64,000 bases of DNA from Veillonellaceae bacterium DNF00626. Its GTDB lineage: Bacteria; Bacillota; Negativicutes; Veillonellales; Dialisteraceae. The DNA lies in NCBI GenBank assembly GCA_001553355.1, contig KQ960818.1, forward strand, positions 29,493 to 93,492. Reading direction: 5' to 3'. How positions within the stretch are numbered: position 1 is the stretch's first letter; every line of letters starts with the position of its first letter. The notes under the pieces were generated by a model that did not search any database, was not told where the DNA came from, and saw nothing but the letters and a program-made list of their open reading frames with translations. The position numbers were made by a program, and so were the translations under genes. Positions 5,771 to 63,995 of this stretch are shown in pieces.

Positions 5771-7660
5771 TTATTCCTCCAAAAAACTATAAAACTCCAA
5801 CTGTTTTATTTCATCAAATTGTTTCTGTGCAAGAGTAGATTTTTCGAGTAAATTAATTAGCGCATACTCTTTTTTATATCTCTCTACAAGTAAATTTATT
5901 AATCTGCTATTTCTTGCATTAGCGGACATAAATAATGTATTTCCTGAATCGATAAAGTAGCTAAATGTTTTAACAGCATTGGTCTCAAAGAAATAATCCA
6001 ATGTGCTATCTGGTGTTTCACTAATAAAATAGGAATCCTTATGGAAAAATTCTAATGTGGCAAGTCTATATGCCATATCCACAAATATTCTTTGTGATTC
6101 TGATAATGTCATTTCTGATTCTCTCTCTGTTTCATTTAAGAAGAATTTAAAAAAAGCTTCATCTGATTTCCCAACTAATTCAAGCCTTACATTGCTATCA
6201 TTACCTAAAAATGAATATGCATATTTCTTAAATACCGTACTGTAGTCTTGAAATCTATCTAAAACATAAGCATCAATTTCTAATGCCAGCTTTTTTTCTC
6301 TTTGTTTAGTTTGCTCTAACAATTCATGATACTCTTGTTTTTTTAATTCAAGTTGTTGATATTTCGCAAAATTATCATCACTTGTTAAATCTAAAGTTTT
6401 CTTAATTTTTTGTTGTTTTTCAATTACTTTAAACAATTCTTTATTTTCTTCGCTCAATAGTTTTTTTATTTTTAAAATTTCTTTATTTATCAAAGAATAA
6501 TTATTTTGGAGATATCTCTTTTCGTTGTCTAAATTTTTTCTTTCAATTTCTAACCTATTTAAATCTATATTTTTTCTTATCTTTATTGATTTATTGCAAT
6601 AAAAGCACTTGTCTACCTCCAATATCTTATTCACATGATTTTCTCCACAAAACGGACAAACATCGGCTAATATCGATGGCACATATTTATTATATATTTT
6701 CTGATATTTATCTGGGAAGACATTGTTATACCATTGTTGTTCAATCTCCAGTAATTGTTTTCCTACACTTTCAAAATCAATCCTGTTTTGTTTGCTTTCT
6801 CTCTCTTTTTTACTAAGTTCTTGCTCATGTTTACTAATCCTTTTCTTTTTTTCAGAAATATTATTATCAATGCTTTGTAAATCTTCCAAAGAATACTGAG
6901 ATTTTATTGTGTTTTTTTTGCTCAAGTCTTCTCCTAAAAATTCTTTAATCATAGACATTTTATAAGAGGTTAAGCGCTCCTGGCTGTCATATTTTTTTAT
7001 TAATTTCTGTACTTCATCATACTCAAAGTATTTCTCTGTTGGCATAAACTTACTTAAAATTAACTTTGTCATATTCTGATTCCAAAATGATAAATCTCTA
7101 GACTCTGTAAAAAACATAATTTCAGTAAGCATTAACATAAATGCATTAATATCAGGAAAATTTGATGATTTTTCAAGATGTTTATGATATCTATCAATCA
7201 AATACCTATCTATATTTTGATCATCTTGCCCAAAATATTTTTTTTCATACGTATCATAATTTACATTTTCACCAGAAATCTCTTCATTGTTAATGAACAC
7301 TTTTTTCAGCCTATGCTCATATAAGCTATGAATAACTTCATACTTATCATTTCCTAAATAAAATATAACTCGCACTTCCGCTTTATCTGACTGTTCACGC
7401 ATTCTATTTCTAAAATAGTATTTTTCAAAAGTTGGTCTCTTTAATTTTTGCTGTTCTTTCCAATTTCTTGATTGTACCTGCCCAATATATGGTCCAATTA
7501 CAGCATATTGCATGATATTTAAAAAAGTTGTTTTTCCTAACCCATTTGTTCCAAAAACAAGATTAATTTTTTCTGAAAATGTTACATCAAAAGGACATAT
7601 ATATAAGTCATAATTATAAATATGCAATTCTTTTATCTTGGGCAAACAATAAATTTTCAT
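5771..7660 (-). CDS. SMC/Rad50-like ATPase with a four-cysteine zinc knuckle
   Basis: 629 residues. Walker A GTNGLGKTT is at 37-45. Coiled-coil arms span about 260-310 and 365-465, and between them lies a zinc-binding CPFC (Cys335, Cys338) and CFYC (Cys352, Cys355) knuckle. A signature-like TLSESQR is at 518-524. The Walker B region reads FISETPDSTLD (about 545-555): aligned on the Pro and final Asp, it has Glu-Thr where canonical ABC ATPases have Asp-Glu. It is much shorter than true SMC or SbcC, as in defence ATPases. It starts 8 bases after the methyltransferase gene and ends one base before the small helical gene, so all belong to one operon. Confidence 0.85.
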   Translation of the reverse strand: MKIYCLPKIKELHIYNYDLYICPFDVTFSEKINLVFGTNGLGKTTFLNIMQYAVIGPYIGQVQSRNWKEQQKLKRPTFEKYYFRNRMREQSDKAEVRVIFYLGNDKYEVIHSLYEHRLKKVFINNEEISGENVNYDTYEKKYFGQDDQNIDRYLIDRYHKHLEKSSNFPDINAFMLMLTEIMFFTESRDLSFWNQNMTKLILSKFMPTEKYFEYDEVQKLIKKYDSQERLTSYKMSMIKEFLGEDLSKKNTIKSQYSLEDLQSIDNNISEKKKRISKHEQELSKKERESKQNRIDFESVGKQLLEIEQQWYNNVFPDKYQKIYNKYVPSILADVCPFCGENHVNKILEVDKCFYCNKSIKIRKNIDLNRLEIERKNLDNEKRYLQNNYSLINKEILKIKKLLSEENKELFKVIEKQQKIKKTLDLTSDDNFAKYQQLELKKQEYHELLEQTKQREKKLALEIDAYVLDRFQDYSTVFKKYAYSFLGNDSNVRLELVGKSDEAFFKFFLNETERESEMTLSESQRIFVDMAYRLATLEFFHKDSYFISETPDSTLDYFFETNAVKTFSYFIDSGNTLFMSANARNSRLINLLVERYKKEYALINLLEKSTLAQKQFDEIKQLEFYSFLEE

Positions 7661-10495: not shown

Positions 10496-11515
10496 CTATT
10501 CAAATATTTCTTCTCTTTTTATTGTTTCCTTCTTTCCCTTCTCAAGTTGTGATTTTATCTTTTCGGCAATTTCACGTATAACCGGCACTGTAACGGAATT
10601 CCCGAATTGTTTATACAAATGTGTATCAGCAACTACCAACTTAAAATCATTTGGGAATCCCTGAAGTCTTGCCCATTCTCTCGGAGTCATCTTTCGAATA
10701 TATTCTCTATTAACCTCTCCTTTTATATGAGTAACAGGTGTAAAATCAATTAAACGTTCATCAATTATAAGATTTCTTTCTCTTCCCATACCTCCGCAAA
10801 CAATAGCACCTGCCACGGAATCAAGTTCTCTAATTTCATATCCGAAACCGTTTCCTTTTGAAACATGCCTCTCTTTGTGTCTTTTTAACGATGCCAGATA
10901 AGCTGTAGATAAATAATATTTTGAAGACACTTCCTTTTCTTCAACAATATCTTTTATAACTTTTGTATCATCGGTTTTTTGAGGGAATACAAAATCCGAA
11001 GGTGCTATATCATTCCTGAATGCTACAATATATATCCTTTCTCTGTTTTGTGGAACTCCGAAATTCTTACTGTTCAAAACTTGATAAAATACCGCATATC
11101 CCAATTCTTTCAAAATATTTCTAATCACCTGAAATGTACGCCCTCTATCATGGTTGACAAGGTTTTTGACATTCTCACAAAATACAATTTTCGGTTTATG
11201 TTCCTTTATAATTCTTGCAACATCAAAAAACAATGTCCCTCTCGCATCCTCAAACCCTCTTTTATGTCCTGCAAGAGAAAACGCCTGACAAGGGAAGCCG
11301 GCAAGTAATATATCGTGATCCGGAATATCTTTTTCATCAACTTTAGTAATATCCCCAGCTACATCTAAACCGTCATTAAAATTTGCTTTATAAGTTTCTA
11401 CCGCTTTTTCATCCCATTCACTTATAAAAACGGTCTTGATATTTTTTCCGAATGCCTGTTCAAATCCAAGCCTGATCCCTCCGATACCGGCAAACAAATC
11501 AATTGATTTATACAT
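10496..11515 (-). CDS. DNA (cytosine-5-)-methyltransferase of the HpaII-like system
   Basis: 339 residues. Motif I DLFAGIGG (6-13), motif IV GFPCQAF with catalytic Cys76, motif VI ENV (114-116), motif VIII QNRERIYIVAF, then a variable target-recognition region and motif X KQFGNSVTVPVI close to the end. It makes 5-methylcytosine that protects host DNA from the partner nuclease. The ATG at 11515 follows GAGG at good spacing and overlaps the end of the small regulator gene by 8 bases; longer frames (11551, 11533) run into that gene. Order regulator-methyltransferase-endonuclease-vsr ensures protection is made first. Confidence 0.95.
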   Translation of the reverse strand: MYKSIDLFAGIGGIRLGFEQAFGKNIKTVFISEWDEKAVETYKANFNDGLDVAGDITKVDEKDIPDHDILLAGFPCQAFSLAGHKRGFEDARGTLFFDVARIIKEHKPKIVFCENVKNLVNHDRGRTFQVIRNILKELGYAVFYQVLNSKNFGVPQNRERIYIVAFRNDIAPSDFVFPQKTDDTKVIKDIVEEKEVSSKYYLSTAYLASLKRHKERHVSKGNGFGYEIRELDSVAGAIVCGGMGRERNLIIDERLIDFTPVTHIKGEVNREYIRKMTPREWARLQGFPNDFKLVVADTHLYKQFGNSVTVPVIREIAEKIKSQLEKGKKETIKREEIFE

Positions 11516-11723
11516 CTTGTTTTCCTCTTTCATACTCAATGATATCTTCAATGTTACAATTCAGTCTCTCACATATTCTTCCTAAGATTTCAAGTCTTAC
11601 GGATTCGTTTCGCCCCATTCTTGAAATGGTGGACGGACCGGTTTCTATTAATTTCTGCAAATCGCCTTTATTCATATTTCTGTCAATTAACAACTTCCAT
11701 AACTTGTTATATGAGAATTTCAT
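11508..11723 (-). CDS. Small XRE/Cro-type helix-turn-helix regulator
   Basis: 71 residues, almost entirely one Cro/CI-like helix-turn-helix domain: a KGDLQKLIETGPSTISRMGRNE recognition region, then a helical end (LGRICERLNCNIEDII). It overlaps the methyltransferase start by 8 bases. Proteins of this size and position in restriction-modification operons often act as controllers of methyltransferase or nuclease expression; that role is inferred. Confidence 0.85.
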   Translation of the reverse strand: MKFSYNKLWKLLIDRNMNKGDLQKLIETGPSTISRMGRNESVRLEILGRICERLNCNIEDIIEYERGKQDV

Positions 11724-12411: not shown

Positions 12412-12441
12412 ATAAAAGACCATAGTTCAAAACTACGGTCT
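12412..12441 (-). terminator. Terminator downstream of intact guaA
   Basis: AGACC at 12417-12421 pairs with GGTCT at 12437-12441, extended inward on the minus strand by G-T and TAG/CTA pairs; a short T-run follows on that strand. It closely resembles the hairpin at 3990-4019. Confidence 0.65.
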
Positions 12442-12545
12442 AATTTTTTGTCCTCATGTAAACCACTTGGAACTATTATTTAGTTTATTCTTTTTTACTT
12501 CCGGTACCATTTGAATACCGGTAGCCATTTTAGAAAATTTTGCTA

Positions 12546-12561
12546 TTATTCCCACTCGATA
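12546..12561 (-). other. Right attachment site, 3' end of guaA
   Basis: The last codons and stop of guaA. TCCCACTCGATA (12550-12561) is repeated at 4049-4060. Integration here keeps the gene intact. A nearby CCGGTA/TACCGG inverted repeat (12501-12521) could be an arm site, which is speculative. Confidence 0.75.
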
Positions 12562-22531: not shown

Positions 22532-22589
22532 AAAACCTCAAAAAAACGGATCACAAAACAAAACGGCATCCGCTTTTTTGAGGTTTTAT
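22532..22589 (-). terminator. Long hairpin with T-run between acpP and fabF
   Basis: AACCTC plus an A-run plus CGGAT pairs with ATCCG, a T-run and GAGGTT, around a 16-base loop. It looks like an intrinsic terminator inside the fab operon, which could let acyl carrier protein be made in excess of the genes below it. Partial read-through or a second promoter would be needed for fabF and rnc. Confidence 0.6.
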
Positions 22590-22603
22590 TTCCATATCGG
22601 TCA

Positions 22604-52551: not shown

Positions 52552-53004
52552 CTACACTTTCAGACGATTTTCCAGTCTGTTTCTTTCCAGTTCCTCTTTC
52601 ATTTCCAGAAGTCCGTCCCACGCTTTCTGCGCTTCCGTTTCCGTATCTGGAATCTTCACAGGTAGTGTCATTTCTTCTTCTGACGGTGTTTCGTGTAAAT
52701 CCACTATCGTTACATCTTCATTCACGTAATCACAGCTCACTGCCGGATCGATATGGCTGTACCTTATCTTCGCCAGTTCCCTTTCCACGCGCCATATCGT
52801 CTGGATAGCTTTGGCATACCTCATCGTCATTTTGATTTTCTCCAAAGCATAATACAGAGGCTCATTCGATGTCTCCCACATATTTGCTATCCACTCTCCG
52901 TCCTGCTCCGGTATCGCTCCGCCCTTATTCTTGAGTTCTTGCAGCTCTCTTTCCGCCCATTCTTCTTTAGATTCCACTGCTTCTTTCAAATCTTCCAGTG
53001 TCAT
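52552..53004 (-). CDS. Hypothetical charged helical protein
   Basis: 150 residues, not matched to a family. It is Glu/Lys-rich and mostly helical, with a repeated Trp pattern (EEWAERE, GEWIANMWE, TIWRVERE, KAWDGLLE). No signal peptide or membrane segment is seen. AAAGGAG lies 9 bases before the ATG and a terminator follows the stop, so it is a real gene. It looks like accessory or phage-derived material, and lies next to the RNA repeat array. Function unknown. Confidence 0.7.
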   Translation of the reverse strand: MTLEDLKEAVESKEEWAERELQELKNKGGAIPEQDGEWIANMWETSNEPLYYALEKIKMTMRYAKAIQTIWRVERELAKIRYSHIDPAVSCDYVNEDVTIVDLHETPSEEEMTLPVKIPDTETEAQKAWDGLLEMKEELERNRLENRLKV

Positions 53005-53214
53005 TTTCTTCAGCTCCTTTCATAATTGAATCAATAACTACCTTGTTGTCTTCATTATTCCTTTTTAGTTCTTACCTGTCAACGTTTCCTTGTCCCTCTT
53101 TTGGTACATTTATTTTTCATCATAAACACCGTCTTTAGATGTATTTTTCATAACTCCAAATAACCATTAAAATCTCCTTTACACTCCTTTGCATATCTTT
53201 GCATAGTATCCGAC

Positions 53215-53243
53215 TTGACAATATTGTCTTTATTTGTTATATT
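53215..53243 (+). promoter_or_regulatory. Promoter of array RNA 1
   Basis: TTGACA, 17 bases, TATATT. The same consensus elements occur at 53534-53562 (copy 2) and 53862-53890 (copy 3), each preceded by the shared upstream block. Confidence 0.9.
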
Positions 53244-53249
53244 GCGATT

Positions 53250-53361
53250 AGATAAAGAAAGAGATGTTCGCACGGACTCCGCTGATTCACTCAGTGGTAA
53301 AGAGGCTGCAACGGTAAGATTGGTTGCGGCCGCCTATGACGTATCTCTTTCTTCGTTTTTT
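53250..53361 (+). ncRNA. Candidate small RNA, copy 1
   Basis: Predicted from the promoter to a U-run. An 11-bp outer stem (AAGAAAGAGAT 53255-53265 with ATCTCTTTCTT 53343-53353) precedes TTTTTT (53356-53361). Inside are hairpin I (CCGCTGA/TCAGTGG, loop TTCAC) and hairpin II (GGCTGCAA 53304-53311 with TTGCGGCC 53324-53331) with the loop CGGTAAGATTGG (53312-53323). The outer stem plus U-run is also the terminator. I know no RNA family with this loop. Start site inferred. Confidence 0.75.
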
Positions 53362-53372
53362 ATACTGTGGTC

Positions 53373-53447
53373 AGATAAAGAATGAATTGCATCCTGCCGT
53401 CTGGACGATTAATTACCGTGTGGCGTAGGGATGAGGTTCATTTTTTT
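53373..53447 (+). ncRNA. Second hairpin element of unit 1, possible RNA or second terminator
   Basis: Follows TATACT at 53361-53366, which with TGACGT 18 bases upstream could be a weak promoter. It starts GTGGTCAGATAAAGAA, resembling the start of RNAs 1 and 3. AATGAA/TTCATT, CATCC/GGATG and GCC/GGC form a broken stem ending in seven T (53441-53447). It may be a separate short RNA or a backup terminator. Confidence 0.45.
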
Positions 53448-53533
53448 ATTATAAACACCGTCTTTAGATGTATTTTTCATAACTCCAAATAACCATTAAA
53501 ATCTCCTTTACACTTCTTTGCATGGTATTCGAC

Positions 53534-53562
53534 TTGACAATATTATCTTTATTTGTTATATT
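53534..53562 (+). promoter_or_regulatory. Promoter of array RNA 2
   Basis: TTGACA at 53534-53539 and TATATT at 53557-53562, 17-base spacer with one base change from copy 1. Confidence 0.9.
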
Positions 53563-53568
53563 GCGATT

Positions 53569-53680
53569 AGATAAAGAAAGAGATGTTCGCACGGACTCCG
53601 CTGATTCACTCAGTGGTAAAGAGGCTGCAACGGTAAGATTGGTTGCGGCCGCCTATGACGTATCTCTTTCTTCGTTTTTT
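53569..53680 (+). ncRNA. Candidate small RNA, copy 2
   Basis: Sequence identical to copy 1 over the predicted RNA. The loop CGGTAAGATTGG is at 53631-53642. Identity of the RNA while the upstream part has changed suggests recent duplication, gene conversion or strong constraint. Confidence 0.75.
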
Positions 53681-53691
53681 ATACTGTGGTC

Positions 53692-53766
53692 AGATAAAGA
53701 ATGAATTGCATCCTGCCGTCTGGACGATTAATTACCGTGTGGCGTAGGGATGAGGTTCATTTTTTT
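53692..53766 (+). ncRNA. Second hairpin element of unit 2
   Basis: Identical to the element at 53373-53447; same weak promoter and T-run, and the same doubts about being a separate transcript. Confidence 0.45.
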
Positions 53767-53861
53767 ATTATAAACACCGTCTTTAGATGCATTTTTCATA
53801 ACTCCAAATAACCATTAAAATATCCTTTACACTTCTTTGCATATCTTTGCATGGTATCCAC

Positions 53862-53890
53862 TTGACAATATTGTCTTCGTTTGTTATATT
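53862..53890 (+). promoter_or_regulatory. Promoter of array RNA 3
   Basis: TTGACA at 53862-53867 and TATATT at 53885-53890 with a 17-base spacer. Confidence 0.9.
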
Positions 53891-53896
53891 GTGGTC

Positions 53897-53971
53897 AGAT
53901 AAAAAGATATCTACGCTATCGTTGCCAGCGGTAAGATTGGCTGGCGAAGTAGCGTTAGATATCTCTTTTTT
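53897..53971 (+). ncRNA. Candidate small RNA, diverged copy 3
   Basis: A different sequence that folds alike: outer stem GATATCTACGCTA (53906-53918) with TAGCGT, one bulged T and AGATATC (53950-53963), then a U-run. One hairpin, TTGCCAG (53922-53928) with CTGGCGA (53941-53947), presents exactly the loop CGGTAAGATTGG (53929-53940). Both stems differ in sequence from copies 1 and 2 but keep pairing, while the loop is unchanged. Hairpin I is absent. Confidence 0.75.
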
Positions 53972-54173
53972 CGTGCTATTACTGCAAAAATTCTCTCCCT
54001 TTATCCATTCACGGAAAATTCTATTCTCCGCCTCCTTTATTTTCATTATCATATGACAAATAAAACCGATTTATATATTTGTCTTTTTCCTCTTTGATAA
54101 TCCATCATTTGTGCAGAAAAAATTTTTGTGTATAATAATAGTAAATTTCTTTCATTATCATAAAGGAGGACTT

Positions 54174-54473
54174 ATGAAAGGCGGCGACGCGGACGAATTT
54201 ATTGATTACATCACAGAGTATGATGCCTGTGTCCGTCACAAAGGATATGTGTATCGTTTTTTTACCTCTTTCCATCCCGGACGGCAAACATATCGAGTGA
54301 GCATAGAGAAATATCGCTGGACAGAAGAGGCTTTTCATGATTTTGTCGAATTGGTTTATACGTACGAATCTGATGACTTGGAAGACTGTCTGAATCATGT
54401 GACGGAAGATATTCTCTGGGACGGTCGTTCGTTTTATGAATTGGAAAAATCTCTCACGTGGATTGATTGGTAA
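54174..54473 (+). CDS. Hypothetical acidic protein
   Basis: 99 residues, Asp/Glu/Tyr-rich, with no signal peptide or known motif; I do not recognise it. The ATG at 54174 has AAAGGAGG 5 bases upstream, while an earlier in-frame ATG lacks one. A promoter TTGTGC-16-TATAAT (54109-54136) precedes it. The sequence (YVYRFFTSFHPGRQTYRVSIEKYRW) suggests a small alpha/beta fold. It directly follows the RNA array in the same direction but has its own promoter. Confidence 0.75.
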   Translation: MKGGDADEFIDYITEYDACVRHKGYVYRFFTSFHPGRQTYRVSIEKYRWTEEAFHDFVELVYTYESDDLEDCLNHVTEDILWDGRSFYELEKSLTWIDW

Positions 54474-61712: not shown

Positions 61713-63995
61713 TCTTTTTTCCTTCTTTCGTTCTTTTTTTAATTTCGTCGAATTTTCATTTTCTATACAGCAATTCATTCGATTGAGCCGCAATGCATTG
61801 AAGCATACGGTGACACTGGAGAGTGCCATCGCTGCCGCCGCCCACATGGGGGAAACGGTTAACCCCGAGTAGAGTCCCATGGCCATGGGAATGAGGAAAA
61901 TATTATAAGCAAATGCCCAGAATAAATTTTGATGAATGACTGTAAGTGTTTTACGGCTGATATAAATCGCTTTCGCTACATCGGTCAGTCTTGATTTCAT
62001 GAGTACCACATCAGAGGAGTCAATGGCTATATCGCTTCCGCTCCCGATGGCAATACCGATATCTGCTCTTGCCATGGCCGGCGCATCATTGATTCCATCG
62101 CCCACCATAGCGACAGGGCCTTGTTCTTGATATATTTTTACTTTTTCTTCTTTTTCATGTGGAAGGACTTCCGCCATAATTTGTGTGATTCCTGCAATTT
62201 TCCCTATTTCTTTGGCTGTCCGTTCATTATCTCCTGTAAGCATGACTACATGCAATCCCAATTGATGAAGATCCGCCACCGCTTTCACGGAATCGCCTTT
62301 GATCACATCTGCGACTGACATCATTCCCAAGAGTTCTCCGCTCTTTTCAAAGTAAATAACGGTTTTACCGGCTTTACTCCATGCCTTTTCTTTTTCTTTT
62401 AGCGCCTCGGGTATGCGTGCGAATTGTCCGATATAGCGACTGCTACCGCCATGAATGATAAAGGGCCCTCTGACACCTTCAAGACCGTATCCCACCACAG
62501 CTTTAAATTTTTGAATGGGATAAGCAGAAATACGACGATTTTCACATTCTGCCACAATGGCAACCGCCATCGGATGCTCGGATAATTTTTCTAAGCCATA
62601 GGCATAACGGAAAAATTCTACTTCCACTTCCGGTGATGCCGGACAAATATCAATAACTTGAGGTTTACCTGCTGTAATTGTCCCCGTTTTGTCCAATAAA
62701 ACAGTCTTCAATTTTCCGCATATTTCCAAAGCAGCTCCATTTTTGAATAATATGCCTTTGCGTGCCGCTATGCCGCTCCCTGCCATGATGGCCACCGGTG
62801 TCGCCAAGCCTAAAGCGCAGGGACAGGAAATAACAAGCACAGAAATAGCATGTTCTAAGGCTATTTCTGTCATGACGCCTTTACACAGCCAACCAATAAA
62901 TGTACCTATGGAAAGTACGATAATAGCAGGCACAAAGATGGACGACACTTTATCCGCCAAGCGTGATACCGGCGCTTTACCTACGGATGCCGCCATAACT
63001 AAATCTACCATTTGTGCAAAAGCTGTCTGTTCACCCACATGATCAGCCATCACGCGAATCATACCAAATTGATTCACTGTCGCGGCTCGCACCGTATCAC
63101 CGATAGTTTTATCTGCCGGCATGGATTCACCGGTCAGTGTCGATTCATCAATAGTCGTATTTCCTTCTATCACATGACCGTCCGCCGGAATAATTTCTCC
63201 GGGACGAACAATAAATACATCTCCGATATTTACTTCTTCTGCCGATACCACTATTTCTTTTCCATCTTTTTCAATAGTGGCACGCCGAGGTGACAACTCC
63301 ATCAGATACCGCAAGGAATCTGTGGCGCGCCCTTTCGTATAAGCTTCCAATAATTTACCGATGGTAATCAAAGCCGGAATCATCGCTGCTGACTCGAAGT
63401 ATAGACTATGTCGATAAAAATGCCACATTTCTTCAGCACTCCACACTGACCCTGTCATACCCGTCATTTTCGCTAAAATGAAACACGACCAGAAAAAAGA
63501 AACCCCGGATCCCAAAGCCACAAGCGTATCCATATTGGGCATGGCGGAAGAAAGCGCCCGTATCCCCGATGTGATAAATTTCCTATTCACCGCTAAAACG
63601 GCCAAAGCGAGTACCATCTGAATTCGACCAAGGATAAGATATTTTCCCTCCAACAACGCCGGAAGGGGAAGATCCAACATAGTATATCCCATGGACAGAT
63701 ACATCAATAAAACGAGAAACACGACAGACCAAAGAAATCTCTTCTTAAGCCCGGCTATTTCCTCTTCATTCGATAATACCGATACCATTTCATCTTTTTC
63801 AAACAGCTTCGCCTGATACCCTGCCTCTTCCACCGCCTTAATGATGGCTTTATCAGATGCCGATCCTTCCACCGTCATGGACTTCGCCAAGAGCGACACG
63901 GAAACGACGTCCACGCCCGATACATTTCTCACGGCTTTTTCTATATGCTGCCGGCACATATCACAAGTCATGCCGGTGATCTCATATTTTTTCAT
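61503..63995 (-). CDS. copA: Copper-exporting P1B-type ATPase with N- and C-terminal metal domains
   Basis: 830 residues. The N-terminal HMA domain has CxxC Cys11/Cys14. Transmembrane metal motif CPC is at 391-393, TGES at 288-291, DKTGT (phosphorylation Asp435) and GDGINDAPAM downstream. The SEHPMA His-Pro pair is present. CPC points to Cu(I). After the last helices a second HMA domain (residues 762-830, Cys773/Cys776) is fused by a Lys/Arg/Glu-rich linker. The upstream flank is outside the window. Confidence 0.95.
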   Translation of the reverse strand: MKKYEITGMTCDMCRQHIEKAVRNVSGVDVVSVSLLAKSMTVEGSASDKAIIKAVEEAGYQAKLFEKDEMVSVLSNEEEIAGLKKRFLWSVVFLVLLMYLSMGYTMLDLPLPALLEGKYLILGRIQMVLALAVLAVNRKFITSGIRALSSAMPNMDTLVALGSGVSFFWSCFILAKMTGMTGSVWSAEEMWHFYRHSLYFESAAMIPALITIGKLLEAYTKGRATDSLRYLMELSPRRATIEKDGKEIVVSAEEVNIGDVFIVRPGEIIPADGHVIEGNTTIDESTLTGESMPADKTIGDTVRAATVNQFGMIRVMADHVGEQTAFAQMVDLVMAASVGKAPVSRLADKVSSIFVPAIIVLSIGTFIGWLCKGVMTEIALEHAISVLVISCPCALGLATPVAIMAGSGIAARKGILFKNGAALEICGKLKTVLLDKTGTITAGKPQVIDICPASPEVEVEFFRYAYGLEKLSEHPMAVAIVAECENRRISAYPIQKFKAVVGYGLEGVRGPFIIHGGSSRYIGQFARIPEALKEKEKAWSKAGKTVIYFEKSGELLGMMSVADVIKGDSVKAVADLHQLGLHVVMLTGDNERTAKEIGKIAGITQIMAEVLPHEKEEKVKIYQEQGPVAMVGDGINDAPAMARADIGIAIGSGSDIAIDSSDVVLMKSRLTDVAKAIYISRKTLTVIHQNLFWAFAYNIFLIPMAMGLYSGLTVSPMWAAAAMALSSVTVCFNALRLNRMNCCIENENSTKLKKERKKEKRMKKIISVEGMTCEHCENTVKKALEEIDGIEKAEASHETKQVTLVISKEIPEDILRKVIEEKGYQYKGIK

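Follow-up and report, generated by a model that had tools for sequence, protein, structure and literature searches.

What are the three closely spaced promoter and hairpin units that lie just beyond 53 kb in this window (the whole stretch of 64,000 nucleotides that was analysed), and what might they do for the genome that carries them? The original prediction described a TTGACA-17-TATATT promoter in each unit, followed by a hairpin RNA with a common loop, CGGTAAGATTGG, and all of these elements are present. Each promoter matches the consensus at 11 of 12 positions, with TG preceding the second hexamer, and TTGACA-17-TATAAT with at most one mismatch occurs at 10 sites in the whole window against 0.72 expected. 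Judged on sequence features only, this is a multicopy family in which every copy has a promoter and a terminator of its own. The parts are arranged as follows.

53215..53243, plus strand: promoter of unit 1, TTGACA-17-TATATT with an extended -10
53250..53364, plus strand: RNA A copy 1, a three-way junction with outer stem and U-run, its start placed from the -10
53312..53323, plus strand: loop CGGTAAGATTGG of copy 1
53372..53452, plus strand: hairpin B copy 1, a fold with a U-run and the leader TATACTGTGGTCAGATAAAG before it
53534..53562, plus strand: promoter of unit 2, TTGACA-17-TATATT
53569..53683, plus strand: RNA A copy 2, identical to copy 1
53691..53771, plus strand: hairpin B copy 2
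53862..53890, plus strand: promoter of unit 3, TTGACA-17-TATATT
53897..53972, plus strand: RNA C (copy 3), one long hairpin with its loop at 53929-53940 and the U-run TTTTTT

The identity of copies 1 and 2 over the RNA was borne out. The 300-nt units that begin at 53184 and 53503 are 98% identical with a period of 319, so the tandem duplication is recent; copies 1 and 3 share 94% identity in the sequence that precedes them. The loop starts at 53312, 53631 and 53929. The predicted folds are stable, at -41.9 kcal/mol (z -4.1) for RNA A in copies 1 and 2 and -38.8 kcal/mol (z -6.1) for RNA C, but the architecture differs, copies 1 and 2 forming a three-way junction and copy 3 a single long hairpin.

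The view that the units belong to no known family also held, as no Rfam covariance model matched them at the gathering threshold and the matches at a relaxed threshold were at chance level. Elsewhere in the window there are a T-box leader (RF00230; 38503-38738, plus strand), a pan motif (RF01749; 41786-41874, plus strand) and, at 12422-12553 on the minus strand, a match of 94 bits to SpR18_sRNA (RF02446), a family named from Streptococcus. This last match immediately follows the stop codon of a guaA-like gene, with a C5-methyltransferase-like gene (10496-11551) next in line; it could be the sign of an island acquired horizontally at the guaA 3' end. On each strand the strongest fold anywhere in the window is an AT-rich terminator-like palindrome (TAAAACCTCAAAAAA...TTTTTTGAGGTTTTA; 22540-22590), located upstream of a ketoacyl-ACP synthase-like gene on the minus strand.

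The origin of the units is revealed by contig C31 of the same genome, where copies of A and C lie next to each other at 62297-62555 on the plus strand. Together with a further unit, D, they are antisense within an intact ORF of 4599 aa (a 13.8-kb gene), the A and C units being placed in frame in the linker after a MuF_C-like domain. The MuF_C match is just under the Pfam cut-off, and neighbouring genes match holin, tail and virion families; taken together, these features identify the ORF as a prophage gene of the polyvalent kind, a class of proteins of phages and conjugative elements (PMC5512222). In a folding scan of this gene the two strongest peaks on the antisense strand are the A/C linker and the linker that holds unit D. 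Another genome of the same order, G018, has one homologue at 46% identity (gene at 5832 on its contig C10), in which the linker is ~50 aa shorter, with no exact boundary visible. A scan of genomes and viral contigs with the polyvalent-protein alignment matched only this G018 contig and an IMG/VR prophage that is 100% identical over 6.5 kb and is probably from the same strain.

The array in the window proves to be embedded in debris of the same gene. Three minus-strand features define it.

52552..53004, minus strand: 150-aa ORF, a prophage-remnant gene whose C-terminal third matches G018:C10:40-174 (58% over 45 aa)
53079..53110, minus strand: short stretch of 32 bases that matches a different part of the polyvalent gene (87.5%)
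53113..54052, minus strand: linker region of the polyvalent gene in degraded copies, the frame interrupted by stops

The minus strand encodes the same protein segment as the prophage gene, interrupted by stop codons, and the hairpins have phage-gene sequence to either side. A flank peptide reads KGENFCS in the window, KGENLYS in the prophage and KGESLFS in G018, and the YAKECKGDFNGYL segment has travelled along as well. The G018 sequence to which the 150-aa ORF is akin lies upstream of the homologous polyvalent gene on the same contig. This kinship, the match at 53079-53110 and the broken frame mark 52.5-54.05 kb as a scrambled prophage remnant, of phage-gene origin and with its coding capacity lost, and the units themselves very probably originate from the phage gene. 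Hairpin B (-26.7 kcal/mol, z -4.2), which lies after RNA A in each of units 1 and 2 and had been missed earlier, occurs in the genome in these two copies only, and no counterpart was found in the prophage. Its leader TATACTGTGGTCAGATAAAG is as at the promoters, so B may be a further, degenerate unit.

Downstream of the array, at 54144-54473 on the plus strand, is a 109-aa ORF without Pfam or PHROG match. It is conserved in every other genome sampled from the genus and family except one; in the stretches read from related genomes alaS does not adjoin it. A type III toxin-antitoxin system was considered and rejected because genomes throughout the family have this ORF although no array was found in them. 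A short coding ORF in RNA A (MFARTPLIHSVVKRLQR) was likewise rejected, being absent from RNA C and having a purine-rich stretch too close to its start.

Unit D extends the family beyond the A and C types.

~C31:66604-66750, antisense in the 4599-aa gene: unit D, in the second linker, with TTGTAA-17-TATACT, the leader ATGTACAGATGAAG, a long hairpin and a U-run

A stand-alone copy of D, recovered by the promoter and leader model R1 (E 1.1e-5), lies in an intergenic region of contig C9. R1 also gave many weak chance matches, and the remaining weak ones in this genome failed a closer look. The C9 copy is 88% identical to D of the prophage; its homology to the phage gene is limited to 151 bp, and an additional T in the U-run, read from the alignment, shifts the frame. 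A different site, locus L239 (G000:C15:199840-199930, minus strand), has no -35 but contains TATTGTGGTTAGATAAA and, after it, a terminator, AAAAAGAGAT...ATCTCTTTTTT, similar to the outer stem in RNAs A and C. It may be a unit in decay or simply an ordinary terminator.

These copies change the meaning of the loop. Identical in the three window copies, it had been called invariant, but in the prophage C copy it reads CATTAAGATTGG, with the core TAAGATTGG kept, and so is not strictly invariant. The loop of D is unrelated to CGGTAAGATTGG, although the hairpins of D and of the prophage C copy are just as strong, and CGGTAAGATTGG is accordingly a feature of A and C rather than of the whole family. 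Nor do the differing stems around a fixed loop represent covariation in place, as had been supposed, because the paralogy of A and C is older: the two stand side by side already in the prophage gene. As a general caution, a fixed loop with differing stems among tandem copies can mean old paralogues and not covariation.

What has been constrained is better seen by comparing prophage and window, bearing in mind that each comparison is of two sequences (prophage A with window unit 1, prophage C with window C, and the D pair). Between prophage A and window unit 1 the gene flank has changed at 17 of 59 positions and the promoter spacer at 8 of 17, while the hexamers are unaltered (0/12) and RNA A has changed at only 5 of 106 (p 2.5e-5 against the flank). 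Over the two independent pairs, A and D, none of 24 hexamer positions has changed as opposed to 13 of 34 in the spacers (one-sided p 0.0003). Read as codons, prophage and window copy 1 differ by 21 nonsynonymous and 2 synonymous changes with no bias to the third position, so it is not protein coding that accounts for the conservation of RNA A. The five changes in RNA A, all at codon positions 1 or 2 and yet structure-neutral, comprise one compensatory pair, two hairpin-loop bases and one unpaired base, and no pair is broken. Between the two copies of RNA C, 9 of 26 pairs have changed, four by compensation and five on one side, again with none broken. The expectation of structure-preserving change is thereby supported, and the substitutions fit a constraint on promoter and fold. 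The covariation score of RNA C was equalled in 39 of 500 shuffles. The hairpins of palindromes can change symmetrically through templated (quasi-palindrome) mutation in the absence of selection, which mimics compensation. On balance the comparisons favour a constraint on the plus-strand promoter and fold and not on the protein, a constraint that may have acted in the phage rather than in the chromosome if the window copies were captured recently.

Our tentative reading is that these are antisense RNA genes of prophage origin that the chromosome has retained and multiplied, and that their RNAs would pair with the polyvalent mRNA. The array would be the chromosomal remnant of a polyvalent gene in which the antisense units, each made up of a sigma-70 promoter, the leader TGGTCAGATAAAG, a strong hairpin and a U-run, were kept and tandemly multiplied. 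Each promoter would direct a short, stable hairpin RNA able to pair with the polyvalent mRNA at its complementary linker, by the loop first and then along its length, blocking or destabilizing that mRNA and reducing the amount of the protein made by a related phage, whether resident or incoming. Contiguous complementarity to the prophage mRNA reaches 44 bases for RNA A and 22 for D. Outside the family the 12-mer loop complement does not occur in the genome; CCAATCTTA, searched as an exact 9-mer, occurs eight times, five of them within the family, and the three sites outside it (one antisense to an EF-G-like gene, one within a long ORF and one not in a sense ORF) include none near a start codon in sense. 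With the loop complement confined to the family and no outside site at a start codon, antisense pairing with the phage mRNA is the most economical function to propose. The steps differ in their standing: RNA is probably produced from the promoters, and silencing of the phage gene by these RNAs is possible but distinctly more conjectural. The prophage gene itself carries the same antisense units, which is a counterpoint to silencing by extra copies.

Relatives of the family were sought widely. Covariance models R2 and R3, run with strict filters on 200 genomes, gave no credible match in the 199 related genomes outside its own, and a scan of 120 genomes for the CGGTAAGATTGG pattern gave outside matches that, where the surroundings were read, had no hairpin. 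Among viral contigs, the CGGTAAGATTGGYTG matches inspected were without a hairpin except for the identical IMG/VR prophage, and none of the 11 other matches to the leader pattern had matching hairpins. Searches of phage and plasmid collections with the array (blastn) and of phages with the polyvalent segment (tblastn) returned nothing. The units are thus found in one genome, plus the 100%-identical IMG/VR prophage.

This restriction to one genome bears on the strongest of the alternatives, that the units are decaying fragments of a prophage gene, duplicated by chance and neutral, whose promoters and hairpins seem intact merely through recent capture, hairpin-bearing linkers being a feature of the phage gene. 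Their surroundings are indeed a prophage remnant, with the 150-aa ORF akin to phage sequence and scrambled pieces of the gene, and the near-identity of copies 1 and 2 speaks for a recent event. Against this, no hexamer base has changed although flank and spacer have changed by 29-47%, units of the gene have been kept at two unlinked chromosomal loci, and it is the promoter and hairpin unit that has been tandemly multiplied. Neutral decay is somewhat unlikely, though a serious contender.

A mobile palindromic element, similar to the Rickettsia palindromic elements or to a MITE and inserting in frame into phage-gene linkers as well as into intergenic DNA, would explain why the palindromes are in frame within the prophage gene, why the linker there is longer than in G018 and why the C9 copy is a lone block of 151 bp. 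An element of this sort should stand by itself, but the window copies are accompanied by phage-gene flanks and the copies are few, so that this explanation is improbable. Weaker still, and very unlikely, is the original suggestion of Qrr- or LhrC-like regulators acting in trans, with the exposed loop as a seed for several host mRNAs: the loops of A and C are the same despite differing stems, and the C copy of the prophage still has the core TAAGATTGG, but the search for exact 9-mer targets near start codons went against it, the loop of D is unrelated and no credible relative of the family appeared in the 199 related genomes. Of the original interpretation, the plus-strand, promoter-driven, structured RNAs in several copies and outside Rfam stand as a prediction, while covariation in place and host regulation in trans do not.

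To return to prophage-derived antisense RNAs, the chromosomal copies could serve the host, serve a resident prophage or be passive relics. A giant protein of the polyvalent kind is predicted to enter the cell with the injected phage DNA. A bolder version, which we consider unlikely, is that the phage hides antisense RNA genes in the linkers of this gene and the host keeps multiplied copies of them at loci that are not linked, as an RNA-based, sequence-specific immunity to the injected protein. If the units are transcribed, they would constitute an antisense RNA gene family lying inside the gene for a giant phage effector, in the linkers between its domains, and duplicated into intergenic DNA of the host. 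The RNA features would then have outlived the coding sequence, linking prophage decay to the birth of new small RNA genes, and would suggest a simple, protein-free route to phage resistance.

Several known systems share some of these characteristics. The Rickettsia palindromic elements also lie in frame inside protein genes and in intergenic DNA, but the units described here have a promoter, a U-run and few copies, and those in the window have phage-gene flanks. LhrC and Qrr likewise comprise several near-identical promoter-RNA-terminator units, some in tandem; here the units are antisense to a phage gene, no trans targets were found, and D has another loop. The C4 antisense RNA of phages P1 and P7 is a short, structured phage antisense RNA, but its target and structure differ and no Rfam match was obtained at either threshold. 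The polyvalent proteins (PMC5512222) provide the likeness for the gene harbouring the prophage units, which is giant and multidomain with a MuF_C-like match; a term search of that paper found no mention of antisense or linker RNAs. STnc6030 of the Salmonella prophage BTP1 is antisense to late genes, one of them a putative DNA-injection gene, and mediates superinfection exclusion (PMC7067206). It resembles the units in being a prophage-derived antisense RNA, with the effect proposed here likewise directed at the same phage. STnc6030 is about 500-786 nt long, cis-encoded in an intact prophage and experimentally shown (PMC7067206), whereas the units are short hairpin RNAs in linkers, with extra copies from a decayed gene in the chromosome, and are known from sequence alone. 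Its characteristic trait of being encoded antisense inside a phage gene is nevertheless found in all three units on C31, A, C and D.
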